A stretch of DNA of 64,000 bases, taken from Nitrospinota bacterium (GTDB lineage: Bacteria > Nitrospinota_A > UBA7883 > JACRLM01). Position numbers and translations under genes: made by a program. The notes under the pieces are model-generated. The model ran no database searches and was not told the DNA's origin. It saw only the letters and a list, made by a program, of their open reading frames with translations. Each line of letters begins with the position of its first letter. Within the stretch, counting starts at the first letter, position 1. Positions 22,682 through 60,540 of the stretch are shown here, one piece after another. The stretch covers positions 138,848-202,847 of the forward strand of contig JACQXA010000002.1 in assembly GCA_016208975.1 (NCBI GenBank), in the 5' to 3' direction.

Positions 22682-24208
22682 ATGAACCATAGAGACAAGA
22701 TCAAGACGCTGGCGGAGCTGGCCGAAACGGCGCAATCCGCCCGGGCCGGGGGGAAAAAGGTCGTTTACTGCCACGGCGTTTTCGACCTGCTTCACATCGG
22801 CCACATAAAACATCTGGAGGCCGCCCGCCGGTTGGGGGACATCCTCATCGTAACCGTCACCCCCGACCGGTTCGTGAACAAGGGGCCGCACCGCCCCGCG
22901 TTCCCCGAAATGTTGCGCGCCGAGGCGCTGGCCGCCATGGGGTGCGTGGATTGGGTGGGTGTGAACAACTGGCCCACAGCCGTGGAGCCCATAAACATCA
23001 TCAAACCCGACCTTTTCGTTAAGGGCATCGTGCGCGGCGAGGGCAAGCGGGACCATTCGGACGCCATTGACCAGGAGGAAAACGCAATCCGGGGCGTCGG
23101 CGGAAACATGGTGTTCACCGACGAGGAGACCTATAGCGCCTCCACGCTGATAAACCGGTTTATGGACATTTTCACCCCGGAAGCCAAACTTTTCCTGGAA
23201 GATTTCCGGAGCCGCCACACCCCCGAGGAAATAATCGGCCACATCCAGAAGATAAACCAGCTCAAGGTCCTCACCATCGGCGAGACTATCATAGACGAGT
23301 ACCATTTCTGCGCCGCCCTGGGCAAAGCCAACAAAGAGCCCATCCTGGCCGTCCGCAACCTTTACAAGGAAACCTACGCCGGGGGCATATTGGCCATCGC
23401 CAACCACGTTTCCGGATTTTGCGGCCAGGTGGGGCTTATGAGCATGATCGGCGAGGTGGACTCCTTCGAGGATTTTGTCCACGGGAAGCTTTATCCCAAT
23501 GTTACGCCCATGTTCCTGCGCCAGCGCGGAAAACCCACGCTGGTGAAACGCCGGTTCGTGGAAAGCTATTCGGGCTCCAAGCTGTTCGAAGTGTACATAA
23601 TGGAGAACGGCAAGATAAACGGCGAGCTGGAGGAGGCTTTCTGCGCCAGCCTGGAGGAGGAGCTTCCAAAATACGACGTGGTGGTGGTGGCCGATTACGG
23701 CCATGGCCTGTTCACCGACCGGTCCATAAAAATCCTGGCCGAAAAGGCGAAATTCCTGGCGGTGAATACCCAGACCAACGCCGGGAACATGGGGTTTAAC
23801 ATGATCTCCAAATACCCCCGGGCGGATTTCATATCAATAGCCGAGCCGGAGATACGGCTGGACAGCCGCGACATGAGCGGCGATCTGAAAAAGCTTGTGG
23901 AGCGGGCCGCCAAAAATTCCAACTGCGGCCGGATGGTGGTTACCAAGGGGAAGAACGGCTGTCTGTGTTATGATGAAACCACGGGTTTTTGCGAAATTCC
24001 GGCGTTTTCGGTGAAAATGGTGGACCGTATCGGATCCGGCGACGCGGTGCTGGCCCTCACGGCGCCGTGCGTTACGCTGGGGCTCCCCATGGAGGTCGTG
24101 GGGTTCATCGGCAACGTGGCCGGCGCGGAAGCCTGCGCCATCATGGGGAACAAAACGCCGATAGAGCCTTCCAGTCTTTTCAGGCATATTACGTCGCTGA
24201 TGAAATAA
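22682..24208 (+). CDS. Nucleotidyltransferase-PfkB kinase fusion, HldE-like with reversed domain order
   Basis: Of its 508 residues, 25-160 form a cytidylyltransferase-like fold: CHGVFDLLHIGHIKHLE holds the HxGH motif, followed by TVTPDRFVNKGPHRP. Residues about 190-508 form a PfkB/ribokinase-type sugar kinase: GGILAIANHV, VADYGHGL and the anion-hole VDRIGSGDAV with the catalytic Asp. HldE has the same two activities (heptose-7-phosphate kinase and heptose-1-phosphate adenylyltransferase) but in the opposite order. I infer activation of a sugar phosphate to a nucleotide sugar, probably a heptose or relative, given the SIS isomerase next door. It heads an operon that runs to 41354. Confidence 0.8.
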   Translation: MNHRDKIKTLAELAETAQSARAGGKKVVYCHGVFDLLHIGHIKHLEAARRLGDILIVTVTPDRFVNKGPHRPAFPEMLRAEALAAMGCVDWVGVNNWPTAVEPINIIKPDLFVKGIVRGEGKRDHSDAIDQEENAIRGVGGNMVFTDEETYSASTLINRFMDIFTPEAKLFLEDFRSRHTPEEIIGHIQKINQLKVLTIGETIIDEYHFCAALGKANKEPILAVRNLYKETYAGGILAIANHVSGFCGQVGLMSMIGEVDSFEDFVHGKLYPNVTPMFLRQRGKPTLVKRRFVESYSGSKLFEVYIMENGKINGELEEAFCASLEEELPKYDVVVVADYGHGLFTDRSIKILAEKAKFLAVNTQTNAGNMGFNMISKYPRADFISIAEPEIRLDSRDMSGDLKKLVERAAKNSNCGRMVVTKGKNGCLCYDETTGFCEIPAFSVKMVDRIGSGDAVLALTAPCVTLGLPMEVVGFIGNVAGAEACAIMGNKTPIEPSSLFRHITSLMK

Positions 24209-48520: not shown

Positions 48521-49555
48521 ATGAGCATCGTCGCCCATCCGTATAACGCGGAGCTTGCCAGCGCATGGGACGACTTTGTTTCAAACCAGTCCAGAAACGG
48601 GACCATCTTCCACGAACAGCGCTTTCTGGAGTATCACCCGCCCGGCCGGTTTACCGACGCTTCGCTGGTGTTCCATGAAAATGGCTCCGCTGTGGAAAAA
48701 ATCATCGGCGTGTTTCCGGCGGCGCTGGTTGCGCAAAATGGAGAGACGAGGCTTGTGTCCCATCCGGGAAGCTCTTACGGCGGGCTTGTTTACGGGCCGA
48801 AAACCACCGCCCGGCAGGTGATGGAGATGGTGGAGGGAATTATAGGACACGCGCAAAGCCTGAAGGCCCAATCGGTGGAAATGCGCCTGGCGGAGAACCT
48901 GATTTTCTCCGACCCGCCGGATCAGGAGCTGGGCTTCATGCTCTGGCACAGGGGGTTTACGCGCAAATCGCTGGAGCTGAGTAGCGCCATAAACCTTTTG
49001 ACCGGCGCGCGTCTTTCCGGGATGAAAAGCACCGTGCGATGGTCCGTGGGCCGGGCGCAAAAAGACGGGGTCACGGTGGAGACGGAAAGGCCCGTGGAAG
49101 AGGCCTACGCGCTGATAGAGAAAAACCTGGCCGCAAAATACGGGAAGAAACCAACCCACTCACTGGAAGAGTTGCAGGAACTCAAACGCAGGTACCCGGA
49201 ACGGATACGCATATGGTCCGCCATGACAGACGGCCAATGCGCCGGAACCACGGTGATATTCGAGGCCAATAGAAAATCCGTACACGTATTTTACATCGCG
49301 CAGGATTACAAATTCTCCAAAGCCCAGCCGCTCTACCTGCTTTTCGACAGGGTTGTCGCCCACTACGCGGACATGGGTTTTGAATGCCTCAACTTCGGTA
49401 TCTCCTCCCGGGAACGGTGGATAAAATGGGGTATACTTGAGTTCAAAGAAAGCTTCGGCGCCCGCGGCGTCACACGGGAAACATGGGCGCTTAACGATTT
49501 GGCGGCCCCTAAACCGCACGACGGCCCGCCGCATGAAACAGGTATCCGGCAATGA
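48521..49555 (+). CDS. FemAB/GNAT-type acyl- or aminoacyltransferase
   Basis: The start is ATG 48521, 7 bases after the aminotransferase stop; the longer frame overlaps that gene. The 344-residue protein has a double-GNAT outline like the FemAB-related proteins of exopolysaccharide clusters. It shows FHEQRFLEYHP, VFPAALVAQNG, YGGLVYGP, a KSTVRWSVGRAQKDG block, and FEANRKSVHVFYIAQDYKFSKAQPLY-type strands before FLNFGIS-like FECLNFGISSRE. It may acylate the amino group made by the upstream enzyme, replacing the hexapeptide acetyltransferase (WbpD/WlbB) that is usual in this pathway. The acyl donor is unknown. Confidence 0.65.
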   Translation: MSIVAHPYNAELASAWDDFVSNQSRNGTIFHEQRFLEYHPPGRFTDASLVFHENGSAVEKIIGVFPAALVAQNGETRLVSHPGSSYGGLVYGPKTTARQVMEMVEGIIGHAQSLKAQSVEMRLAENLIFSDPPDQELGFMLWHRGFTRKSLELSSAINLLTGARLSGMKSTVRWSVGRAQKDGVTVETERPVEEAYALIEKNLAAKYGKKPTHSLEELQELKRRYPERIRIWSAMTDGQCAGTTVIFEANRKSVHVFYIAQDYKFSKAQPLYLLFDRVVAHYADMGFECLNFGISSRERWIKWGILEFKESFGARGVTRETWALNDLAAPKPHDGPPHETGIRQ

Positions 49556-51039
49556 AACTCAGGGCGCTTCTCATCAAGCCGAACATTGTTTCAAGACGCG
49601 GTTTCGACATGCTCAACAAAATGACGCCCCCCCTGGGCCTCGGCTACATCGCAAGCGCCCTGCTGGCGGCAGGGCATGAAGTGAAAATACTGGACATGGT
49701 GGCCGAAGGCGCGGGCAGGATGTGGGATTACGGAGCCTCCCATACCTGCCATGGCCTAACAGACGATGACCTGCTCGATGTTTGCCGGGCCTTCGCTCCG
49801 GATGTCGTGGGCGTCACCGGATTCACGACCCAGCATTCCAGGATCGTGGAAATCATATCGGCGGTCAAAATAGCGTTGCCAGGCGTGATAACCGTGCTGG
49901 GCGGCGTGCACGTCACATCCATTCCGGAGATGGTGATGGAATGCTCCGGGGCCGATTACGCCCTTCTTGGTGACGCGGAGGAATCCATCGTAGGGCTGTT
50001 CGAGGCGGTGTCGCCGGGTAATGCCCAAGCTTTGGAGCGGATAGGCGGGCTTGCGCGGCGGGTGGACGGCGGGATAGCGGTTAATCCGTTGAACGCCAGG
50101 GGGCTGGATATAGGTGGAATAAGGCCTCCGGCGCGCCAGCTGTTACCCAATGAGGCGTATATCAGGCACGGCATCCCAATGCCCGTGATCACCTCCCGCG
50201 GATGCCCTTACAGTTGCGCGTTCTGTTGCGTGCACGTCAGCCGGGGCCGTTCATACTATTACCGCGACCCCGCCAGCGTGGTGGACGAGATAGAGTCCGT
50301 CGTCCGCGATTACGGTTACGGCACGGTATCGATATTCGATGACGCTTTCAACGTTATTCCGGAGCGGGTTATCGCGATTTGCAAGGAGATCAAGAATAGA
50401 AGGCTGGGCATAAGGCTGGTGCTCCCCAGCAGTCTGATAATAAGCAGGCTCACGCGGGAAACGCTTTTCTGGCTCAAGGAGGCCGGATGCGTTTCGGTGG
50501 CGCTTCCATTCGAGCATGTGGACGAGAAGATAAGGAACTCCGTCATCAACAAGAACCTCCCTTCATCCCGGTTCGAGGAAGTGTTGGAATGGTGCAGGGA
50601 CGTGGGGCTTCTGGCCGTAGTAAATTTCGTTCTCGGCATGCCGGGGGAGACGGAGGAAACGCTCCGCGCCATCGTGGATTATGTGGGAAAAAACGCGTTC
50701 CGGATGGACGGGGTGGCCAGCTACATCGCCACCCCTTTTCCCGGCACCCCGTTTTACCGGGAATGTGAGGAGAAAGGGTATCTGGACAGGGCCGCCCCAT
50801 TTCTGGAGTACGACCTGTATGGAAGCGTGATAGACACTCCATGGATAACGGGGCGGGTGGTGGAGAAATACAAGACGGAGATCGATTCGGCGTTCAAACG
50901 GGCCAGGGAAGGGCTTTTCGATGAAAATATCGTAAGGCGCGCCATCCGCAAGTCCGATAAGGAAGCCATGGCGTATGTGAACAGCTACTATTTCGAAAAG
51001 CGCAACCAGGAGTGGGACAAGAGGGCGGAAATCCGCTGA
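49552..51039 (+). CDS. B12-binding-domain radical SAM protein
   Basis: In this 495-residue protein, residues 1-190 have the B12-type layout (PPLGLGYIASALLAAGHEV, ILDMV, VGVTGFT, TVLGGVHVT, LLGDAEESI). The radical SAM core holds SRGCPYSCAFCC with CxxxCxxC at about 216-223. NFVLGMPGETEET and YIATPFPGTPFY complete the pattern of the RimO/Elp3-like half. It overlaps the preceding gene by ATGA and lies directly before the phosphoramidate cassette. It could C- or P-methylate an intermediate, but it could equally belong to the amino-sugar branch. Confidence 0.82.
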   Translation: MKLRALLIKPNIVSRRGFDMLNKMTPPLGLGYIASALLAAGHEVKILDMVAEGAGRMWDYGASHTCHGLTDDDLLDVCRAFAPDVVGVTGFTTQHSRIVEIISAVKIALPGVITVLGGVHVTSIPEMVMECSGADYALLGDAEESIVGLFEAVSPGNAQALERIGGLARRVDGGIAVNPLNARGLDIGGIRPPARQLLPNEAYIRHGIPMPVITSRGCPYSCAFCCVHVSRGRSYYYRDPASVVDEIESVVRDYGYGTVSIFDDAFNVIPERVIAICKEIKNRRLGIRLVLPSSLIISRLTRETLFWLKEAGCVSVALPFEHVDEKIRNSVINKNLPSSRFEEVLEWCRDVGLLAVVNFVLGMPGETEETLRAIVDYVGKNAFRMDGVASYIATPFPGTPFYRECEEKGYLDRAAPFLEYDLYGSVIDTPWITGRVVEKYKTEIDSAFKRAREGLFDENIVRRAIRKSDKEAMAYVNSYYFEKRNQEWDKRAEIR

Positions 51040-51060: not shown

Positions 51061-51792
51061 ATGGCAATAGACGTGGATAAACAGCGGGGGATACTGGAAG
51101 GCATTTCACGCCACTATAACGTTTACGAGGGGTTCGACCGGCGGCAGAACGAAGTGGTGGGGGAAATGATGGCCGAGCGCGTCCGCGGCAAAAGGACCCT
51201 GGAATTGGGATGCGCCAACGGGCTCATCACGGGGATGTTGCTTAAAACCGCCGCCGCGCTGGACGTGGTGGACGGCGCCGGAAAATACATCGCCGAGGTG
51301 ACCGCCAAATACGGTCCGGCCATAAGCGCGCATGTATCCCTTTTCGAGGAGTATGATCCCCCCTGCAAATACGAGGCGGTGGTCTTCGCCAACACCCTGC
51401 ATCACATCCATGCCCCGGAGGCGTTGCTGGAAAGGATACGCGGATGGGTGGCGCCCGGAGGCAGGCTGTATATAACCGCGCCCAACATGCTTTCCCTTCA
51501 CAGGCGTCTGGGAGTGCTGATGGGGAAGCTTAAAGACACCCATGACGCGACCGAGCGGAACCTGGCCTTCGACCAGCCGGGGCGCTATACCAAGGCCAGC
51601 CTTATTGCCCAGCTGGAACGGGCGGGGTACCGTGTAGTGGAGTGCCATGGATTTTTTCTAAAGCCGTTCAGCCACGCCCAGATGGAAACGCTGGATCCTT
51701 CGCCGGAGCTTATGAAAGCCCTCTGCCAGATGGGCAGGGAACTGGAAGAGTACGCAAGCCTTATTTTCGCCGAAGCGGAGCCTTTAAGATGA
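51061..51792 (+). CDS. Class I SAM methyltransferase, candidate phosphoramidate-pathway methylase
   Basis: Motif I of this 243-residue protein is TLELGCANGLITGML (about 45-59), followed by DVVDGAGKYIAEV and YEAVVFANTLHHI. The N-terminus HYNVYEGFDRRQNEVVGEMM resembles small-molecule O-methyltransferases. It stands immediately before the glutamine-kinase-like gene (ATGA overlap), the place of Cj1419/Cj1420 in the C. jejuni O-methyl phosphoramidate locus. Methylation of the phosphoramidate oxygen is therefore the leading guess; the acceptor is not shown by sequence. Confidence 0.75.
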   Translation: MAIDVDKQRGILEGISRHYNVYEGFDRRQNEVVGEMMAERVRGKRTLELGCANGLITGMLLKTAAALDVVDGAGKYIAEVTAKYGPAISAHVSLFEEYDPPCKYEAVVFANTLHHIHAPEALLERIRGWVAPGGRLYITAPNMLSLHRRLGVLMGKLKDTHDATERNLAFDQPGRYTKASLIAQLERAGYRVVECHGFFLKPFSHAQMETLDPSPELMKALCQMGRELEEYASLIFAEAEPLR

Positions 51793-54239
51793 AACGGCTG
51801 GCCAGGCGGATGGACCGTGGGGCAAGACCCGGAGAGACTGTGGCTGAATTCCGCTTCGGAACCAAGGCCGAAACCCTGGAGCGCCTGCAAAGAACGCTTA
51901 GCGGCGCGGTTGTGCCGGAATTCTTTTATTTTGACGCCGACGCCTGGAAAACAGGATGGATGGACATAATCCGGCGAGCGCCATCTGTTTCCGGGGGCGG
52001 GAAAATAATAATCCGCAGTAGCGCCGCCGGTGAGGATGGGGCCGCCCGCTCTATGGCTGGCGCATATTTAAGCGTGGCGGATGTGGATCCGCAAGACGAG
52101 ACGGCTGTGAAAAAGGCCATCGCCCGGGTTATCGCTTCGTACAAGGGGAACGGCGGCCAGGTGATCGTCCAGCGCATGGCGCTGGATATAGCGGTAAGCG
52201 GCGTAATCATGACCCGGAGCGTTACAGACGGCGCGCCATACTATGTCCTGGATTACGATGATGTTTCGGGAAAGACCGACGTGGTAACCGGCGGTATCGG
52301 CGCGCACAAAACGGTTTACGTTTACAGGGGATCGGCCCACTCGGCCATAAAATCGCCCCGGGTGGCGGCGATGGTGGATCTGGCCAGGAAGGTGGAGGCC
52401 GTCTGCGGAGAGACGCCTCTGGATATAGAATTCGCGCTGGGCAATGATGGTACCCAATTCCTCCTCCAGGTCCGCAGGATAACCTCTGAACATCATTGGC
52501 GGGCCCATACGGCGCGTGATGTGGCCCAAAGCCTTTCGGGCCTGGAGGAATTCGTGGCCGGACGGTCAGCGCCCCGGCCCGGCCTTTCGGGCTCGTCCAC
52601 GGTGTTCGGCGTCATGCCGGACTGGAATCCCGCAGAACTGCTGGGCGACGCTCCGGCGCCTCTGGCCATTTCCCTGTTCCGCTGGCTGATAAGCGATGAG
52701 GTATGGAGAAAGGCCAGGGAGCTTATGGGCTACAAGCGCCTTCCTGAAGAAGAGCTTATGGTTACCCTGTGCGGCCGTCCCTATATAGACGTGCGTAATA
52801 GCCTGAATTCCTTTCTCCCCGCCGGTCTTGACGGAAAATTTGAGAGCGCCCTTGTGGACGCGTGTCTTGCCCGGCTCTCCGAAAGCCCCGAGCTTCACGA
52901 CAAGCTGGAGTTCGAGGTGGCCCTGACCGTCCTGGATTTTGATTTCGAAAGGGAAACAGCCGCGTGGTATCCGGATGTGTTCACAGGCGGCGGTAAAATG
53001 CGGTTCCGCGAAAGCCTGCGCGCGCTTACGAACAACGCCCTTGACCTGGGCCATGGGGGCACGTTGCCGGAATTCATCAGCCAGGCCATGAAGCTTGAAG
53101 CCATGCGGGATGGCGGTGACCGGGCGCTTGAAAAAAACGGAGACTCCACCGAACTGCTTGGCCAGGCGCTAAAACTGCTGGATGAGTGCCGGATATATGG
53201 CACGCTTCCATTTTCATCCATAGCAAGACATGCGTTCATCGGCGAAAAACTTTTAAAATCGGCGGTGGCCAGGGAGGCGCTTGACGCAGGAAGGGTGGCT
53301 GGGTTCAAAAGATCCATCCGCACCGTATTCAGCGAGCTTTCCCGCGATATGGCCAAGATCTCCCGGGGTGGCGCTTCCCTGGATGGTTTCATGCGCCGCT
53401 ATGGACATTTGCGGCCAGGGGCGTTCGATATCACCTCCAGCCGTTACGCCGATATGCAGGAGATGTTTATCAACGGGGAATTGGCGGCCCCGGCGGAAAA
53501 CGGGGCTTTTACGCTGACTGCGCGGGAAAGCGGGGCCATTGGAAGCCTTCTGGCCGAAGCCGGGATAAATTCCGCAAACCCCGCCGGGCTTTTGGAGCAC
53601 GCCAGGCTTTCAATCCAGTGGCGGGAACGGGCCAAGTTCCTCTTCACAAAGAACCTTTCGGATGCTCTGGAGCTCTTCGCCGCCTGGGGGGAGCGCCAGG
53701 GATTGTCCAGGGAGGACACGTCATTCCTGACCGTCCGGGAGATGGAGGAATTCGCGGCGCGCCCCGGCTCCATCGGGGCTTCAACGTTGCGCGAAGTGGT
53801 TGACAGCAGAAGGGCCGGGAAGGATCTTTTCAAAACGGTCAAGCTGGGATATTTAATAAGGAACATCAGCGACCTGCGCGTCTCTCCCGTGTTACGGAGC
53901 CGTCCGAATTTCATAACGGAAAAAAGGGTGTCGGGTCCGGTGGCGCTGATAGAAAAGATACCGGAAGACACAAGGAACATCGCCGGGAAAATAGCCCTCG
54001 TTAAAAACGCCGACCCTGGGTACGACTGGATATTCACCCGTCGCATTAAGGGGCTTGTGACAAAATACGGCGGGGCCAACTCTCACATGGCCATCCGGTG
54101 TGTGGAGATGAACCTTCCCGCGGCCATAGGTTGCGGTGACGAGATTTTCGCAAAACTTGCGGCCAGCGGTTACGCGGAGTTGAATTGCGATGAGAAAACC
54201 GTGCGCCCTGCGATAGTGGGAGATTATGACGGAGCTTAG
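51789..54239 (+). CDS. PEP-synthase-like dikinase, probable L-glutamine kinase (Cj1418-like)
   Basis: Start ATG 51789 overlaps the methyltransferase stop. The 816-residue protein has the ATP-binding domain of PEP synthases and dikinases (IIIRSSAAGEDGAARSMAGAY, Arg76 and onward; LDIEFALGNDG). It ends with the swivelling phosphohistidine domain KYGGANSHMAIRCVEMNLPAAIGCG, with His766. The C-terminal PEP/pyruvate TIM barrel of PPDK is absent, and the middle region is unlike rifampin phosphotransferase. C. jejuni Cj1418 has this architecture and phosphorylates the amide nitrogen of L-glutamine with ATP, giving AMP and phosphate. Gene order with a GATase and a cytidylyltransferase supports the same reaction here. 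Confidence 0.75.
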   Translation: MKRLARRMDRGARPGETVAEFRFGTKAETLERLQRTLSGAVVPEFFYFDADAWKTGWMDIIRRAPSVSGGGKIIIRSSAAGEDGAARSMAGAYLSVADVDPQDETAVKKAIARVIASYKGNGGQVIVQRMALDIAVSGVIMTRSVTDGAPYYVLDYDDVSGKTDVVTGGIGAHKTVYVYRGSAHSAIKSPRVAAMVDLARKVEAVCGETPLDIEFALGNDGTQFLLQVRRITSEHHWRAHTARDVAQSLSGLEEFVAGRSAPRPGLSGSSTVFGVMPDWNPAELLGDAPAPLAISLFRWLISDEVWRKARELMGYKRLPEEELMVTLCGRPYIDVRNSLNSFLPAGLDGKFESALVDACLARLSESPELHDKLEFEVALTVLDFDFERETAAWYPDVFTGGGKMRFRESLRALTNNALDLGHGGTLPEFISQAMKLEAMRDGGDRALEKNGDSTELLGQALKLLDECRIYGTLPFSSIARHAFIGEKLLKSAVAREALDAGRVAGFKRSIRTVFSELSRDMAKISRGGASLDGFMRRYGHLRPGAFDITSSRYADMQEMFINGELAAPAENGAFTLTARESGAIGSLLAEAGINSANPAGLLEHARLSIQWRERAKFLFTKNLSDALELFAAWGERQGLSREDTSFLTVREMEEFAARPGSIGASTLREVVDSRRAGKDLFKTVKLGYLIRNISDLRVSPVLRSRPNFITEKRVSGPVALIEKIPEDTRNIAGKIALVKNADPGYDWIFTRRIKGLVTKYGGANSHMAIRCVEMNLPAAIGCGDEIFAKLAASGYAELNCDEKTVRPAIVGDYDGA

Positions 54240-54849
54240 GATAGGCGTTACAACACGGGAGACCCGCCACGCGGCAAGCGGTGATACGAGGGACGCCATA
54301 AGCCGCGATTGGGCGGGGTTTATCGGCGCGGCCCTGCCGGAAGCGTTGTGGATGCCCGTGCCGAACGTGGGCCCCACCGCGCGGGAATACGCCCAAAGAT
54401 GGGGGCTTAACGGTTTCATATTCACCGGCGGGGAGGATTACACAGGGCGATCGGTCAGAGATGTAACTGAAAAGGGGCTTCTTGAGCTGGCGCTGGAAAA
54501 TAAATATCCGGTCTATGGCGTGTGCAGGGGGATGCAATTCTTCCAGATATATTTTGGCGGGAGTCTTGTGGAGTGTCCTGGCCGGTCGCACGTGTCCGCC
54601 CGCCACGCGGTGACTTTCGTCAACACAGGCAAAGAGGAGCGCGCCACGGTGAATTCTTTCCACAGATGGGGGATGAGGGCCGATGGGCTCGCTCCGGCGC
54701 TGAAACCTTTCGCTATCACGGACGACGGTTTTGTGGAGGGGGTCAATGCGCCGGATAACAGGCTAATGGCCACAATGTGGCACCCGGAAAGGGAATCCCC
54801 TTTCGCAAGGGGCGATATTGGACGTTTGCAGGCTCTGTTCCTATCGTGA
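54226..54849 (+). CDS. Class I glutamine amidotransferase-like hydrolase (Cj1417-like)
   Basis: The 207-residue protein shows FIFTGGEDYTG, then YGVCRGMQFFQIYFGG with the nucleophile Cys100, and MWHPERESPF with His186 and Glu188, so the catalytic triad is complete. It overlaps the kinase gene by 14 bases. By itself it would be called a gamma-glutamyl-GABA hydrolase-like protein. In the C. jejuni pathway Cj1417 splits gamma-glutamyl-CDP-amidate into glutamate and cytidine diphosphoramidate, and this gene is in the matching position. No synthetase subunit is fused or adjacent, consistent with a free hydrolase. Confidence 0.8.
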   Translation: MTELRIGVTTRETRHAASGDTRDAISRDWAGFIGAALPEALWMPVPNVGPTAREYAQRWGLNGFIFTGGEDYTGRSVRDVTEKGLLELALENKYPVYGVCRGMQFFQIYFGGSLVECPGRSHVSARHAVTFVNTGKEERATVNSFHRWGMRADGLAPALKPFAITDDGFVEGVNAPDNRLMATMWHPERESPFARGDIGRLQALFLS

Positions 54850-55622
54850 ACACAAGGACGCTTAACGCTGTTATTCTGGCCGCTGGCAGGGGCTCCCGAA
54901 TGGGGGAAGTCACCGTGGACACGCCCAAATGCCTGGCCTCCATCGGCGGCAAGCCGATGCTTCAATGGCAAATGGCCGCCCTGAGGGAAGCCGGAATCGG
55001 GAAGATATCAATTGTGACCGGTTACAAGCGGGAAAAGCTGGAGGCATACGCGGGGGATAGTGTTGGTTTTTATCACAATCCCCGCTGGGCGGAAACGAAC
55101 ATGGTCAGCAGTCTTGTAACCGCGAGCTCCGTTTTATCGGGGGATGGGTGCGTGGTCAGTTATTCGGATATCGTATATCATCCCTCCGTCATAAAAACGC
55201 TGATTGCGGCGGAGGGGGATGTATGCGTCACATACGACACCCAATGGCTGGAACTGTGGGGGATAAGGTTCCCAGATCCGCTGGAGGACGCGGAAACCTT
55301 CAGGGAAGAGGGCGGCCGCCTGCGGGAGATCGGCGGTAAACCGGCCAGCCTTGAACAAATAGAGGGGCAATACATGGGCCTTCTGAAATTTACGCCAGCC
55401 GGATGGCGCGGGGTTTCGGGCGCTTTAGCGGCCCTGCCGGAAGACCGCCGCGGGAAAATGGACATGACATCGCTTTTAAGCCATCTTCTCAGGCTGGGAA
55501 TCCCGGTGGAAACCGTGGCGGTGCGGGGCCGGTGGCTGGAGGTGGACAGCGTCGGCGATATCATCGCCTACGAGAAGAAACTCGCTGGCGCAGACACATT
55601 CAGCCATGACTGGCGCTGGTGA
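54846..55622 (+). CDS. Nucleotidyltransferase, probable CTP:phosphoglutamine cytidylyltransferase (Cj1416-like)
   Basis: GTG 54846 overlaps the previous stop (GTGA); the longer frame is an artefact. The 258-residue GT-A-like enzyme has AVILAAGRGSRMG (residues 8-20) and TPKCLASIGGKPM, the signature of LicC/PntC/Cj1416-type cytidylyltransferases, with YSDIVYHPSVI as the metal-Asp region and WLEVDSVGDIIAYE at the end. The short C-terminus without a hexapeptide repeat excludes GlmU-type enzymes. In context it would join CMP to L-glutamine phosphate. A phosphocholine or phosphonate substrate is the alternative, but no choline or PEP mutase genes are seen. Confidence 0.78.
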   Translation: MNTRTLNAVILAAGRGSRMGEVTVDTPKCLASIGGKPMLQWQMAALREAGIGKISIVTGYKREKLEAYAGDSVGFYHNPRWAETNMVSSLVTASSVLSGDGCVVSYSDIVYHPSVIKTLIAAEGDVCVTYDTQWLELWGIRFPDPLEDAETFREEGGRLREIGGKPASLEQIEGQYMGLLKFTPAGWRGVSGALAALPEDRRGKMDMTSLLSHLLRLGIPVETVAVRGRWLEVDSVGDIIAYEKKLAGADTFSHDWRW

Positions 55623-56488
55623 CACACGAAATGTTTAACAAGATGATCGGTACGATTGAAAGCGCCATCACCGGGGCGCGGGAAGCCCTTGACGCGCATG
55701 GGGCCGCCACACAGGGTGATCTTGTGGAACACGCGGCGGCGCTTATGAAAATGGCGGCCGAGCTGGTGGATCTTTCAAACACGGCCAAGTACCGGGCGTA
55801 TAAAGCGCTTCTTCCAGATGGCGTTGACGGGTATAAACCATACTCCACACCGTACTTGGCCATGATCAAAGATGTGGAGAACCAGGTGCGCCTCCAGAAT
55901 GAGGAGTATGGAAAATACAAATATTTTTTCGGCCAGCCGTATCAGGCCTTCGCAACGCTGGGAATATTCGGCGCCAGGGACACGGAGACAAGATACCGGG
56001 AATATGGTCTCGGCGGCATGGTGTCGCCGCATCATCGCGTGCTGGACATAGGGGCCAGTTGCGGTTTCATGTCAATTTACACCGCGCTGATGAATGGTTG
56101 CCGCGCCGACTGTGTGGAGCACAATCCGTATATGGTAAAAATCGGCGAGATAGTCGCCGGTTACCTCGGCCTCACCGGGAAAATGCGGTTCTTCGCCACG
56201 GACGTGACCGGCTGGGAGCCGGATTGCCGCTACGATGTGGTTTTCAGCTTCGCCTCCCATCACACCGATGATGGAGGGCACAGCCCGGTCTTGCGGGACT
56301 ACATGAAGCGGTTGTGGTCACTGCTTGTCCCGGGTGGCGCGCTGGTTTTCGAGGGGCACTGCGCCGATTATGGGAACGGGGTGTTTTACAGGGATCTCGA
56401 GGAAAACCGTGATTTGTTCAGCTGGAGCGGCTCGCGCCGGTTCCCGCAGTCGAACCGGGAACTGTTCATAATGAGGCGCAATGGCTGA
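55619..56488 (+). CDS. SAM-dependent methyltransferase with helical N-terminal extension
   Basis: GTG 55619 overlaps the previous stop; ATG 55631 is the alternative start. In the 289-residue protein, residues 1-115 are mostly helical (HAAALMKMAAELVDLSNTAK) with an aromatic-rich end. The SAM domain has VLDIGASCGFMSIYTA (about 140), CVEHNPYMV and YDVVFSFASHHTDDGG. It is the second methyltransferase in the cassette, as C. jejuni has two (Cj1419, Cj1420). It overlaps the next gene by 8 bases. Confidence 0.78.
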   Translation: MTHEMFNKMIGTIESAITGAREALDAHGAATQGDLVEHAAALMKMAAELVDLSNTAKYRAYKALLPDGVDGYKPYSTPYLAMIKDVENQVRLQNEEYGKYKYFFGQPYQAFATLGIFGARDTETRYREYGLGGMVSPHHRVLDIGASCGFMSIYTALMNGCRADCVEHNPYMVKIGEIVAGYLGLTGKMRFFATDVTGWEPDCRYDVVFSFASHHTDDGGHSPVLRDYMKRLWSLLVPGGALVFEGHCADYGNGVFYRDLEENRDLFSWSGSRRFPQSNRELFIMRRNG

Positions 56489-57644
56489 GCCCGGTTTTTC
56501 GCTGGAATGGCCCCTGCGGCCTGAATGGATAAAATCCACGGCCCCCGTCATTCAGCAGACGCGCGCCAGACCCGCCATGCCGAATGTAAACCGGGTGGCG
56601 TTCGCCATGCACAACACCGAGCTGATCAACCACTATGGCCCCATCATGCGCAAGCTTGCGCCTGCGGAATATGACATTGTGTACGTTGCGGCCAATGAAG
56701 CCGAGCGCCGGGAGATGGAATCATTCGCGCAAGGGCTGGGGTGCAACGCCGTCCCGGCCGCGCTGGCGCTTTCCGAAGGGCGTGTTTATGACGCGGCGGT
56801 GGGCGTGCATTACGGCTCCGCGGGAACGGCGCCGGATGGGGCGCCGGCCCTCTTCCGGCTGGCCGTAACCCAGATTCGCCTGATGTACAGCATCGGTAAA
56901 GACGCATGGCTGTTTTCGGACGATAATTATCATTACAACATCATCCTTTGTTTCGGCCCTTATCACCTGAACAACTTGTTGCCGTTCACGAACGCCAAAA
57001 AAGTGTCCGTGGGATACCCCAGGTTCGACAATTTCTTCAATAATCCCCCGGACAGGGCGGCGGCGCTGAAAAGCATGGGACTGGACCCGGCGCGCGAAAC
57101 AATAGTGTGGCTTCCCACCCACGGAGCCTTGTGTTCCGTAAGGGAATTCGCAAAAGCGATCGGTGAATTGTCCGGAGAATACAATGTGGCGATAAAACTC
57201 CACCCGCTTACCGCCGTTAGCGACCCGGCGTCCATCGCCGCGCTTGAGGAAGCCGGTCTTAACAATTACTTTTCCGGAAGCTTCGACAACAGCAACTTGT
57301 TCTCCATAGCGGATTACGTTATCGCCGATTACGGCGGCTCCTCCTTCGGCGCCATATATACCGGCAAAAATCTTGTTCTTCTCGATGTGGCCGCGGCGGC
57401 TGGCAACGAAAATATCACCGGCGAATCATCCAGCGTCGAGCTTCGGCGATGGTTCCCCCATTACGGAGCCGGTGAAGCGGATAAAATAAGAACCGCCCTG
57501 CAAAATAAAACGCTCTGGAGCGGACAGGCCAAGACCAGCGCGGCGCTTCGGGACAGGTTCTTTGCGCCCCATTATGGTTTTTCTTCGGATGTCGCCGCGA
57601 TGGCCATAAGAAATCACAGGAAGATAACCGGCGCGGAAAAATAG
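56481..57644 (+). CDS. CDP-glycerol glycerophosphotransferase-like GT-B transferase
   Basis: The 387-residue protein is similar in pattern to TagB/TagF-type CDP-polyol phosphotransferases. VGYPRFDNFF, TIVWLPTHGALCS, VAIKLHPLT, then SIADYVIADYGGSSFGAIYTGKNLVLLD are the donor-binding half. In those enzymes the two His residues of THG and KLHP bind the CDP donor, and both are present. Located between the cytidylyltransferase and the CysC-like kinase, it could be the enzyme that moves the phosphoramidate from its cytidine carrier to the glycan, or it could handle a separate polyol phosphate. Confidence 0.7.
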   Translation: MAEPGFSLEWPLRPEWIKSTAPVIQQTRARPAMPNVNRVAFAMHNTELINHYGPIMRKLAPAEYDIVYVAANEAERREMESFAQGLGCNAVPAALALSEGRVYDAAVGVHYGSAGTAPDGAPALFRLAVTQIRLMYSIGKDAWLFSDDNYHYNIILCFGPYHLNNLLPFTNAKKVSVGYPRFDNFFNNPPDRAAALKSMGLDPARETIVWLPTHGALCSVREFAKAIGELSGEYNVAIKLHPLTAVSDPASIAALEEAGLNNYFSGSFDNSNLFSIADYVIADYGGSSFGAIYTGKNLVLLDVAAAAGNENITGESSSVELRRWFPHYGAGEADKIRTALQNKTLWSGQAKTSAALRDRFFAPHYGFSSDVAAMAIRNHRKITGAEK

Positions 57645-57656
57645 ACAGGCGGAAGA

Positions 57657-58172
57657 ATGGTTATATGGATAGTGGGCCTTTCGGGGTCGGGTAAAACCTC
57701 CATCGGGCGTGAGGTATATTCCTTGTGGAAGGAAAAGGCGCCCAACACCGCGCTTGTTGACGGTGACGAGATAAGGGAGGTTTTCGGCGCCCGGGGCGAG
57801 GCGGATTATTCTGTGGAGGGGCGCGAAAGAAACTCAAACCGCGTGGCGGCCCTTTGCGCCTGGCTCGACAGGCAGGGGATTAACGTCGTGTGTTGCATCC
57901 TGTCCATCTTTGAGGATAGAAGAAAAAAGAACCGCGCCGGTTATTCTTCATATTTCGAGGTGTTTGTTGACACCCCCTTTCCGGTCATCCTTCAGCGGGA
58001 CACCAAGGGCCTTTATGCCCCGGCCATGCGGGGCGAGATAAAAAACGTGGTGGGGGTGGACATACCTTTCACTCCCCCCGCCGCGGCGGATCTCCGGATA
58101 GACAATAGCGCGGATAAAACCTCTTATCGTGATGACGCCGCGCTTATTCTGGCCAAGGCTGGCGTGATGTAA
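57657..58172 (+). CDS. CysC-like kinase, probable cytidine diphosphoramidate kinase (Cj1415-like)
   Basis: The 171-residue P-loop kinase has IVGLSGSGKTS (Walker A, residues 7-14), VDGDEIREVFG, RNSNRVAALCAWLD and FVDTPFPVILQRDTKGLY, all matching the adenylylsulfate kinase fold. The CysC segment FISPFRxDR is changed to CCILSIFEDRR, so the nucleotide-phosphosulfate site differs. Cj1415, a CysC-like enzyme, phosphorylates the 3'-OH of cytidine diphosphoramidate. A normal APS kinase serving the sulfotransferase at 59428 is the main alternative, but no ATP sulfurylase gene is in the window. Confidence 0.75.
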   Translation: MVIWIVGLSGSGKTSIGREVYSLWKEKAPNTALVDGDEIREVFGARGEADYSVEGRERNSNRVAALCAWLDRQGINVVCCILSIFEDRRKKNRAGYSSYFEVFVDTPFPVILQRDTKGLYAPAMRGEIKNVVGVDIPFTPPAAADLRIDNSADKTSYRDDAALILAKAGVM

Positions 58173-58718
58173 ATGCCGTACATTTATTCCACGGGCGGCA
58201 TGCCCGAAACAAAGATGCAGTATTCCTATTCCCCTTTCCTGGGGATCGGCTTTCTCCATGACTGGTTCAAGGACAGGGATAACGCCCTGGAATATCTTGG
58301 CGGCGTTTCACCGGGGCAGTCCCCATCCGCCGGAGACATTTTCGGGGGCATTAAAAAGGGGCTGGGCTCAAGCTCCATCAAGGAGGCGGAGGCCGCGCGC
58401 GAAAAGCTGGCCACCCTGGTCAAGCGGTTTGAAGTGACCAAGCGGATATATTCGGCCTATAACGGCGAACTGCGCCCGGTGGACACTCAGGACTTCATGG
58501 GGCTGGGTAATTATGCAAGTTTCGCGGAGACTCTCATAGCCGCGCATGAAATTACCGGAAGCCTGGTGTATCTGAACGCATTGCTAAAATGTGTGGATAT
58601 CCTGTGCGCGGCCCGGGAGCGGATTGGGGATCAGCTTAAGGGCAGGGTGGCGGCTGTCATCAGGGAAGAAAGGGCGCGTGTGCTGGCTGTCTGCGCCCGT
58701 CATGGGACACCGTTATGA
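58173..58718 (+). CDS. Hypothetical protein within the phosphoramidate/formyltransferase segment
   Basis: I do not recognise this 181-residue protein. It begins directly after the kinase stop and overlaps the formyltransferase start by ATGA, so it belongs to the operon. The N-terminus is aromatic-rich (YIYSTGG, YSYSPFLGIGFLHDWF). The middle has a Gly-rich FGGIKKGLGSSS, and the rest is mainly helical (EAEAAREKLATLVKRF; AAVIREERARVLAVCARHG). No signal peptide or membrane segment is visible. A role linked to the formyl or phosphoramidate step is only suggested by position. Confidence 0.7.
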   Translation: MPYIYSTGGMPETKMQYSYSPFLGIGFLHDWFKDRDNALEYLGGVSPGQSPSAGDIFGGIKKGLGSSSIKEAEAAREKLATLVKRFEVTKRIYSAYNGELRPVDTQDFMGLGNYASFAETLIAAHEITGSLVYLNALLKCVDILCAARERIGDQLKGRVAAVIREERARVLAVCARHGTPL

Positions 58719-59437
58719 ATTTACCGGGAGTGGTTTTTCTGGCCGGCAGGACCGTCAGGGCGCAGGCATACGCCCAGGCCATGGCCCGCGCGGGGATGAA
58801 ACCGGAATGGGCCTTTGTATATGGCGCCGAAAGCTCCGTTACAGTTCCACCCTCTTTGCCGCAGGCTGGGCCGCCGACTGGTCTGCCACTTCCGGATCTT
58901 TCCGTGCCGCTGGAGGAAACGGCGGCGAACGCGGGCTGGCGGATTCATGAAACCGTGGCCGGGAACGTCAATGACCCCGCCATTCTGGATTTCCTTAAAC
59001 GCGTAAGGCCAGCCCTTGTCATATATGCGGGTTACGGCGGACAGATAGTGGGTGATGAGGCGTTGTCTGTAGCCCCGTTCATGCACGTCCATTCGGGGAA
59101 CCTGCCGGAGGAGCGGGGGAGCACCACTGTCTATTACGGTATTTTAAAGGGAACCGGCGTATGGGCCAGCGCCATTTTGCTGGAGCGGAAAATAGACACC
59201 GGCCCGGTTCTTTTAAAGGCGGAATATCCGCTTCCGCCAGCGGGGCTTGATATAGACCGACTTTACGACCCGGCCATCCGGGCCGATTTATTGTTGAAAG
59301 CGCTGAGGGAATACGCGGCCAGGGGGCATTTGCCGGAAGGGGTTAGACAGGAGCCGGATTGTGGCGAGGATTATTATGTGATACATCCCGTGTTAAAACA
59401 TATTGCGGCGCTTTCCATCAACAAACCTCAGCTATAG
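58715..59437 (+). CDS. Formyltransferase-family protein (Formyl_trans_N)
   Basis: The 240-residue protein has the core of 10-formyl-THF-dependent formyltransferases. IYAGYGGQIV leads to MHVHSGNLPEERGSTTVYY, with the catalytic His and the SxLPxxRG loop at about residue 122; ASAILLERKIDTGPVLL holds the catalytic Asp at about 160. The usual Asn two residues before the His is replaced (M-H-V-H), so the triad is atypical. In sugar clusters these enzymes formylate amino sugars; the amino sugar from 46285-48513 would be a candidate acceptor. It is the last plus-strand gene and overlaps the convergent sulfotransferase by 10 bases. Confidence 0.8.
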   Translation: MNLPGVVFLAGRTVRAQAYAQAMARAGMKPEWAFVYGAESSVTVPPSLPQAGPPTGLPLPDLSVPLEETAANAGWRIHETVAGNVNDPAILDFLKRVRPALVIYAGYGGQIVGDEALSVAPFMHVHSGNLPEERGSTTVYYGILKGTGVWASAILLERKIDTGPVLLKAEYPLPPAGLDIDRLYDPAIRADLLLKALREYAARGHLPEGVRQEPDCGEDYYVIHPVLKHIAALSINKPQL

Positions 59438-60411
59438 CCCATGGCGGTTATGTATTCGCCCAGTTCTTTTTCCATGTAGCTTCTCGCCTTGGGCTCCAGG
59501 CTGTTTTCCCAATTGTTCACCTGATCAATGGATAAGTTCACTCCGCCGCCGGAAGGGTAGGGATACCCCGATTTATCCACGCCGATAGCTTCGGCTATTA
59601 CGCCGAACCACTCATCCCACGCCTCCCGGCCGGAAGCTATTTCCTCCAGCTTTATTTCCATGTAATAGTTCGACTTCAAATCCACCTTTGAGCGCAAATG
59701 GAACCACCGCCGGTAAACCGGCTTTAGTATATATTCGCAAACGTCCTCCACCTTGTCCGGAGCCCATGGCATACGCATAAGAGAATAGGCCACGCCTCGC
59801 GGATCCCTCTTGATGTGGATGAAAGCGCAGTCCGGAAAAAGTTCATAAAGAAAATCAATGTCCAGTATGTTGTGCGGCGTCTTTTCGCACCAGGTCTTTT
59901 TCCCCGCCTTTTTCGTGGCGGCCATAAACACGTTATCCACGAACCTTGCGGCGTGGGCGGTTAATTCGCCCCTGTCCGGGAAATACGCGGGGAGTGTCCA
60001 TAAAATGGAGGACTTCTGCGATGGATGATAAAAATTAACGCCCAATGGCGGAATACTTCTGACAAACTGCGCACCGCGAAACTTGGAGACAAATTCATCC
60101 AGTTCCCGCAGATAAACGGGCAGGTCCACATATTGTTCCACGCAATGCGCCCCCCACCGCTCCGAAAAGCTGTCCGTAAGCTGGCGGCGCAGGAAGTGGT
60201 CGAACTCCCGCGCTACGTCCCTTGCCCTTGTGAAGGAGTATGAAACCGTAAGCGCGTCCACCAGATCTTTCAGTCCATGGGAGTCTATGATGAACCGCGT
60301 TTCAGTTGGAATGGCGTAAACCTCAGGGTGCGTTCCGATAAGGTAATTCATTATGGATGTGCCGGAACGGCCCGTGCCGCCCACGAAAATGCGCTTGGGA
60401 GTTACATACAT
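59428..60411 (-). CDS. PAPS-dependent sulfotransferase
   Basis: I set the start at ATG 60411, behind AAAGGA, since the longer frame adds an unlikely 29-residue lead. The 327-residue protein has RIFVGGTGRSGTSIMNYL (5'-phosphosulfate loop) near the N-terminus and FIHIKRDPRGVAYSL (3'-phosphate site) at about residue 200. KKTWCEKTPHNI is found in glycan sulfotransferases of the Sulfotransfer_3 type. It would sulfate a surface saccharide using PAPS. It is transcribed against the operon and separated by 129 bases from the C1q-like gene. Confidence 0.85.
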   Translation of the reverse strand: MYVTPKRIFVGGTGRSGTSIMNYLIGTHPEVYAIPTETRFIIDSHGLKDLVDALTVSYSFTRARDVAREFDHFLRRQLTDSFSERWGAHCVEQYVDLPVYLRELDEFVSKFRGAQFVRSIPPLGVNFYHPSQKSSILWTLPAYFPDRGELTAHAARFVDNVFMAATKKAGKKTWCEKTPHNILDIDFLYELFPDCAFIHIKRDPRGVAYSLMRMPWAPDKVEDVCEYILKPVYRRWFHLRSKVDLKSNYYMEIKLEEIASGREAWDEWFGVIAEAIGVDKSGYPYPSGGGVNLSIDQVNNWENSLEPKARSYMEKELGEYITAMGYS

Positions 60412-60540
60412 TACATTTCCTTTTGCACCAAGTGCATTCAGGTTTATCGAAAGCTCATGGCTATACACACTGGCCAGATAAATACTTGATGAAATCAATA
60501 CAACTAAGCGAACAAAGCATGTTGCGCCGTTGGATCAATT

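Follow-up and report, generated by a model that had tools for sequence, protein, structure and literature searches.

A nine-gene operon of a Nitrospinota bacterium probably directs the synthesis of an activated phosphoramidate and its placement on a surface polysaccharide, and production of a phosphoramidate glycan by this organism can soundly be inferred. The operon lies at positions 51061-59437 of a 64,000-nucleotide stretch of contig JACQXA010000002.1 (assembly GCA_016208975.1), the whole of which is referred to here as the window. It is a variant of the Campylobacter pathway and belongs to a family of phosphoramidate cassettes that is diverse and widely distributed. Its genes, G1 to G9, are tightly packed on the + strand such that neighbors overlap by a few bases at stop and start codons or abut, the widest gap being 12 bases just 5' of G7, and the GC content is 0.579 versus 0.573 in the rest of the window. 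An earlier sequence-only reading of this DNA had described seven overlapping or nearly overlapping genes ending at 58172. All seven are present on the + strand, with stop/start overlaps or near-zero gaps between them, but that end is an artificial boundary and the operon continues to 59437 with G8 and G9. The start of G2 was corrected from 51642 to 51789, and G4 most likely starts at the GTG at 54846 instead of at 54777. The genes of the operon are as follows.

51061..51792, + strand: G1, class I S-adenosylmethionine (SAM) methyltransferase, first operon gene (PF13489, 46.9 bits)
51789..54239, + strand: G2, predicted L-glutamine kinase of the Cj1418 family, with PPDK_N, a family-specific middle and a C-terminal phosphohistidine domain (His766)
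54226..54849, + strand: G3, predicted Cj1417-type gamma-glutamyl-CDP-amidate hydrolase (CDP, cytidine diphosphate), class I glutamine amidotransferase (GATase)-like (best NCBIfam match NF045546)
54846..55622, + strand: G4, predicted Cj1416-type phosphoglutamine cytidylyltransferase, LicC-like (PF12804, 79 bits; the GTG start overlaps the G3 stop)
55619..56488, + strand: G5, SAM methyltransferase with an extra N-terminal region (PF13649, 29 bits)
56481..57644, + strand: G6, CDP-glycerol glycerophosphotransferase-like protein, candidate phosphoramidate transferase with a CDP-linked donor (PF04464, 28.9 bits)
57657..58172, + strand: G7, predicted Cj1415-type, CysC-like CDP-amidate 3'-kinase (PRK05541, 156 bits, cut-off 127; PF01583 passed)
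58173..58718, + strand: G8, all-helical conserved cassette partner, in the frame of G7
58715..59437, + strand: G9, formyltransferase-fold conserved cassette partner with an invariant HxH instead of the catalytic NxH

The assignment of G2, G3, G4 and G7 to the core pathway is well supported by sequence comparison, the reactions of Cj1415-Cj1418 being as given in PMC11800397 and PMC6429109. G2 scores 814 bits against NF004508, for which the cut-off is 501, and its domains are PPDK_N and a C-terminal PEP-utilizers domain with no others, in agreement with the earlier description of a phosphoenolpyruvate (PEP)-synthase-like protein without the PEP barrel. The glutamine kinase tree separates 94 members, 13 Campylobacterota among them, from PEP-synthase-like proteins with a support of 100 (FastTree; outgroup branches are long). 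The blocks MPDWNPAE, DKxEF, HLR and RExxK are common to G2 and the 13 Campylobacterota sequences, whereas PEP synthases lack them or have other residues there; the first three are invariant or nearly so across the family, and the phosphohistidine His766 is kept in 94 of 94 members. On these comparisons, G2 is well supported as a predicted L-glutamine kinase of the Cj1418 family. The full class I GATase triad noted earlier in G3 (Cys100, His186 and Glu188) is invariant in 88 of 88 relatives. G4, described as LicC/Cj1416-like, indeed has LicC as its best PDB match, and its family residues (N78, N85-M86, Y106, Y111, W134, W138, E150 and others) are common to Campylobacterota and absent from sugar nucleotidyltransferases. 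The hydrolase and cytidylyltransferase trees group cassette members with Campylobacterota as the kinase tree does, with one outgroup row misplaced in each. For G7, the tree of the adenosine 5'-phosphosulfate (APS)-kinase family sets 31 true CysC proteins, including those of E. coli and the host itself, apart from 74 cassette kinases that include Campylobacterota (support 98). The host's own CysC scores 224 bits versus 112 for G7, and because the host has this separate true CysC, G7 is not needed for sulfate activation. By trees and residues alike, the four core enzymes fall with the Campylobacterota Cj1415-1418 proteins, as the sequence-only reading had proposed, and not with PEP synthases, APS kinases, PuuD or sugar nucleotidyltransferases; the grouping with outgroup families that it named as the refuting outcome did not arise.

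The Campylobacterota references were gathered by a search with NF045546, which gave one genome over the cut-off, followed by inclusion of its family and order. The reference loci (L198-L203) contain methyltransferases, kinase, hydrolase and cytidylyltransferase, with a CysC-like kinase near in most, as in Cj1420-Cj1415. One of them, L200, has the C. jejuni gene order, with two PF05159 capsule genes after the kinase and HddC/GmhA/HddA-like genes before it, and its proteins score 1173 bits (kinase, NF004508), 328 bits (hydrolase, NF045546) and 292 bits (CysC-like, PRK05541). Several points weigh against the phosphoramidate assignment. These references are called Campylobacterota on their gene content, the core proteins are ~25-40% identical to the Campylobacterota proteins, G6 and a sulfotransferase-fold protein compete for the transferase role, and G3 reaches 79 bits against NF045546 (gamma-glutamyl-CDP-amidate hydrolase), below the cut-off of 250, for which reason we call it a distant counterpart and not an equivalog. 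The low identity and the hydrolase score also favor an alternative hypothesis in which the operon yields a different but related CDP-linked compound, built from an amide other than glutamine (asparagine, for instance) and bearing another final group. However, practically all 94 kinases, Campylobacterota included, retain one and the same set of invariant residues in the family-specific middle, and we regard this alternative as unlikely.

Relatives of the kinase are found well beyond the window. Two kinase peptides used as queries against 84,980 species genomes returned at least 534 matching stretches, several of which may derive from one gene. The best 80 loci were retrieved, and the recurrence counts of G8 and G9 below refer to these, while co-occurrence counts refer to 63 loci with enough flank. 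The 80 loci represent 16 groups, including Pseudomonadota, Thermodesulfobacteriota, Verrucomicrobiota, Bacteroidota, Acidobacteriota, Omnitrophota and two archaeal contigs from metagenome-assembled genomes (MAGs). The kinase is present in 6 of 370 genomes of a broad sample, host counted, and is carried by 14 plasmids; among 24 genomes of the host's phylum, the host (genome size 2.97 Mb) is the sole one with an NF004508-type kinase over the cut-off. All four core proteins belong to large superfamilies, and one could imagine unrelated PEP-synthase-like, APS-kinase and sugar-nucleotide enzymes adjoining by chance. The trees, the cut-offs and the recurrence of the block in many phyla already disfavor this explanation and make it exceedingly improbable; of the 87 loci having kinase, hydrolase and cytidylyltransferase, 76 have them side by side, so the core grouping is not chance.

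Two further genes belong to the cassette, as judged from sequence. The sequence-only reading had counted the formyltransferase gene among a gene context unlike that of Campylobacter, whereas recurrence and kinase-linked occurrence make that gene, G9, part of the cassette together with G8, an unannotated gene before it. Searching the window genes against the retrieved loci finds G9 in 36 of 80 and G8 in 30 of 80. G8 is accompanied by G9 in 23 of 23 loci, and independent pairs on the kinase tree agree (p about 0.002). Fusions are also observed: G8 and G9 share one reading frame in six loci (L050, L055, L057, L063, L068 and L069), the G7-type CDP-amidate kinase and G8 form a single protein in L065, L078 and L080, and the cytidylyltransferase and G8 form a single frame in L058. 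In the window itself, G7 and G8 lie in one frame parted by a single TAA (58170-58173). Full-length G9 (>280 bits) is found in 2 of 370 sampled genomes, both with the kinase, the next score being 76, and G8 in 2 of 187 genomes, the same two kinase-bearing ones. Neither gene was detected on 72,556 plasmids or beside any Campylobacterota cassette examined.

What might G8 and G9 do? G9 has the Formyl_trans_N fold, and its closest PDB relatives include sugar N-formyltransferases. Its score against PF00551 is 24.0 bits, under the cut-off of 26.1. The Asn of the formyltransferase N-x-H motif is catalytic; when G9 is aligned to formyltransferases this motif becomes H-x-H, invariant in the G9 family, while the second catalytic His and the Asp are kept. 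NxH is retained in 28 of 29 other matched formyltransferases. The AlphaFold2 model of G8 is all-helical (pLDDT 90), with no PDB match under E 0.05 and no BFVD match under E 0.1 in a fold search and no credible match in a sequence search of the PDB. A model of the G8-G9 fusion from L057, built on six sequences, has a pLDDT of 64, for which reason no interface is read from it. One hypothesis is that the two act on the host glycan, as a conventional sugar N-formyltransferase with a helper protein, and merely travel with the cassette, as the fold of G9, its PDB relatives and a DegT aminotransferase gene upstream in the window would suggest. However, the invariant His in place of the catalytic Asn, the fusions of G8 to kinase and to cytidylyltransferase, and the failure to find either gene apart from the kinase in the sampled genomes argue against it, and we consider it doubtful. 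We put forward, just as tentatively, that G8 and G9 could constitute a novel two-enzyme unit which stands in for the methyltransferases of the Cj1419/1420 type and chemically modifies the phosphoramidate in its activated or transferred form, for instance by adding a one-carbon or acyl group. G9 and such methyltransferases share 0 loci among 24 and 27 of 63, an exclusion that is strong by count (p 8e-9), but independent changes on the tree are few (sign test p 0.125).

The methyltransferases of the operon are of another kind. Against a profile of 28 Cj1419/1420-type proteins G1 scores 0 bits and G5 10 bits, which contradicts the earlier equation of the two with Cj1419 and Cj1420, and G1 has no relative in the related loci. 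The proposed collinearity with Cj1420-Cj1415 holds for the kinase-hydrolase-cytidylyltransferase order, and is confined to it since the methyltransferases are unrelated; moreover, G5 and G6 split the cytidylyltransferase from the 3'-kinase. In C. jejuni, knock-outs of Cj1419 and Cj1420 caused no visible change (PMC11800397).

A fundamental question is how the phosphoramidate would be activated and transferred; we infer each reaction of the pathway and its product, and likewise the roles of G1, G5, G6, G8, G9 and the sulfotransferase. G2 would use ATP to N-phosphorylate glutamine, releasing AMP. G4 would join cytidine monophosphate from cytidine triphosphate onto phosphoglutamine to give CDP-L-glutamine, from which G3 would cleave glutamate to yield cytidine diphosphoramidate, and G7 would phosphorylate the 3'-hydroxyl of this product. 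A transferase would then pass H2N-PO2 to a sugar hydroxyl, and the G8/G9 pair may work on the activated group, in its transfer or on the acceptor. The window holds one transferase candidate each of the PF04464 and sulfotransferase kinds, the first being G6 and the second the following gene, convergent with the operon.

59428..60498, - strand: sulfotransferase-fold protein, alternative transferase candidate (PF13469, 69.7 bits)

G6 exceeds the PF04464 gathering score (28.9 vs 22.1) and G7 passes PF01583, which bears out their earlier description as CDP-glycerol-transferase-like and CysC-like. G6 is a candidate because acceptors in its family attack the beta phosphate of CDP-linked donors; the host has no glycerol-3-phosphate cytidylyltransferase over the cut-off, and thus nothing points to CDP-glycerol as the donor for G6. 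The sulfotransferase-fold protein is a candidate because its family recognizes 3'-phosphonucleotides. G6 relatives (PF04464) occur in 22 loci, mostly immediately before G7, and sulfotransferase-fold genes lie near cassettes in 21 loci, window counted. Other candidates are CDP-alcohol phosphotransferases in some loci and, in Campylobacterota, DUF2972 (PF11186), the Cj1421/1422 family of O-methyl phosphoramidate (MeOPN) transferases; an iterated search found no PF11186-type protein in the window. That DUF2972 shares the sulfotransferase fold is not claimed, as profile comparison gave 15% probability with alignment at the RDP motif alone. The 3'-kinase accompanies every sulfotransferase-type or DUF2972-type locus whose flanks are complete and is missing from 2 of 17 PF04464 loci; it is likewise missing from a Vibrio plasmid on which kinase, hydrolase, cytidylyltransferase and PF04464 genes follow one another. 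This fits a model, on small numbers, in which the 3'-phosphate is needed solely by transferases of the sulfotransferase kind. Sulfotransferase-like genes and G6, in 15 and 17 loci, share 1 (p 0.05), a weak exclusion.

The proposed acceptor, a surface polysaccharide, is indicated by ten other scanned window proteins that include an O-antigen ligase, DegT aminotransferases, a GFO/IDH oxidoreductase, SIS-domain and heptose-type cytidylyltransferase/PfkB genes. An alternative is that the activated phosphoramidate enters a small secreted molecule instead of a glycan. Such a role is brought to mind by an Agrobacterium vitis plasmid on which LysE exporters and a CDP-alcohol phosphatidyltransferase accompany the three core genes and no glycan genes are listed in the vicinity. 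The present operon has neither a CDP-alcohol phosphatidyltransferase nor a LysE gene, and the ligase, aminotransferases, sugar oxidoreductase and heptose-type genes of the window make this reading improbable here.

Some observations lie beside these subjects. SIS-domain and RfaE-like genes at 2030-2620 and 22682-24208 of the window suggest that the polysaccharide locus also directs heptose synthesis, and in C. jejuni one phosphoramidate is attached to a heptose. Directly upstream of the operon is the following gene.

49552..51039, + strand: B12-binding radical SAM protein (PF04055 and PF02310)

Weakly similar B12-binding radical SAM genes lie close to the kinase in some ten distant cassettes (the window, L049, L060, L082, L087, L091, L100, L104, L108 and L109). 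Among the other cassettes, the A. vitis plasmid locus (L282, 8914-14003) is perhaps a small-molecule phosphoramidate locus. A weak cytidylyltransferase-like stretch lies at or before the glutamine kinase N-terminus on a Vibrio alfacsensis plasmid (L283, 8368-11355) and in L099 (9275-12415), possibly a fusion. An Azospirillum plasmid (L284, 5633-8149) encodes, adjoining the cassette, an 838-residue protein with an APS-kinase domain at its end and no Pfam match in its first 650 residues. In an acidobacterial MAG (L084, 10001-12971), the kinase adjoins a CysC-like gene with no hydrolase or cytidylyltransferase within 10 kb. Kinase and hydrolase also occur together in an unverified 'Bacteriophage sp.' record from human stool (L281, 679-3672), which may be mislabeled bacterial DNA.

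P-N bonds are rare in biology. The glutamine kinase was termed C. jejuni-specific in a 2022 review (PMC9561416), and yet, in a comparison of about 90 related loci, this supposedly Campylobacter-specific chemistry is spread over many phyla; matches to kinase relatives number in the hundreds among bacteria, and two MAG contigs from archaea add to them. Unmethylated phosphoramidate is reported in Xanthomonas campestris and Shewanella lipopolysaccharide, according to a passage citing that work in PMC3907429, and a gene marker for such glycans would therefore be useful. Both the recurrence of G8 with G9 and the interchangeable transferases point to steps whose chemistry is directly testable in harmless isolates, among them Methylotenera oryzisoli (L057), which has the same G6-G7-G8-G9 cassette; if our tentative proposal for G8 and G9 is true, it would give a phosphoramidate decoration not yet described.

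Relative to known systems, the operon resembles the C. jejuni MeOPN pathway (Cj1415-Cj1422) in its kinase-hydrolase-cytidylyltransferase order, its CysC-like 3'-kinase and its polysaccharide locus, and differs in its methyltransferases, in the two genes between cytidylyltransferase and 3'-kinase, in having no DUF2972 transferase in the window and in the addition of G6, G8 and G9. The cassettes of Pseudomonas, Methylotenera, Magnetococcales, Verrucomicrobia and others share G2-G3-G4 and G7-G8-G9 with the window, often with G6 just before G7, although the order is permuted and some carry G8 as a fusion with G7, G9 or G4. Synthesis of 3'-phosphoadenosine 5'-phosphosulfate and its use by sulfotransferases likewise pairs a CysC-fold 3'-kinase with what may here be a sulfotransferase-fold transferase, but the G7 clade is separate from true CysC and the donor would be a CDP-amidate. 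Finally, sugar and Met-tRNA formyltransferases (PF00551) share with G9 their fold, second catalytic His and Asp, whereas G9 has the invariant His for Asn, its own conserved C-terminus and a partner in G8.

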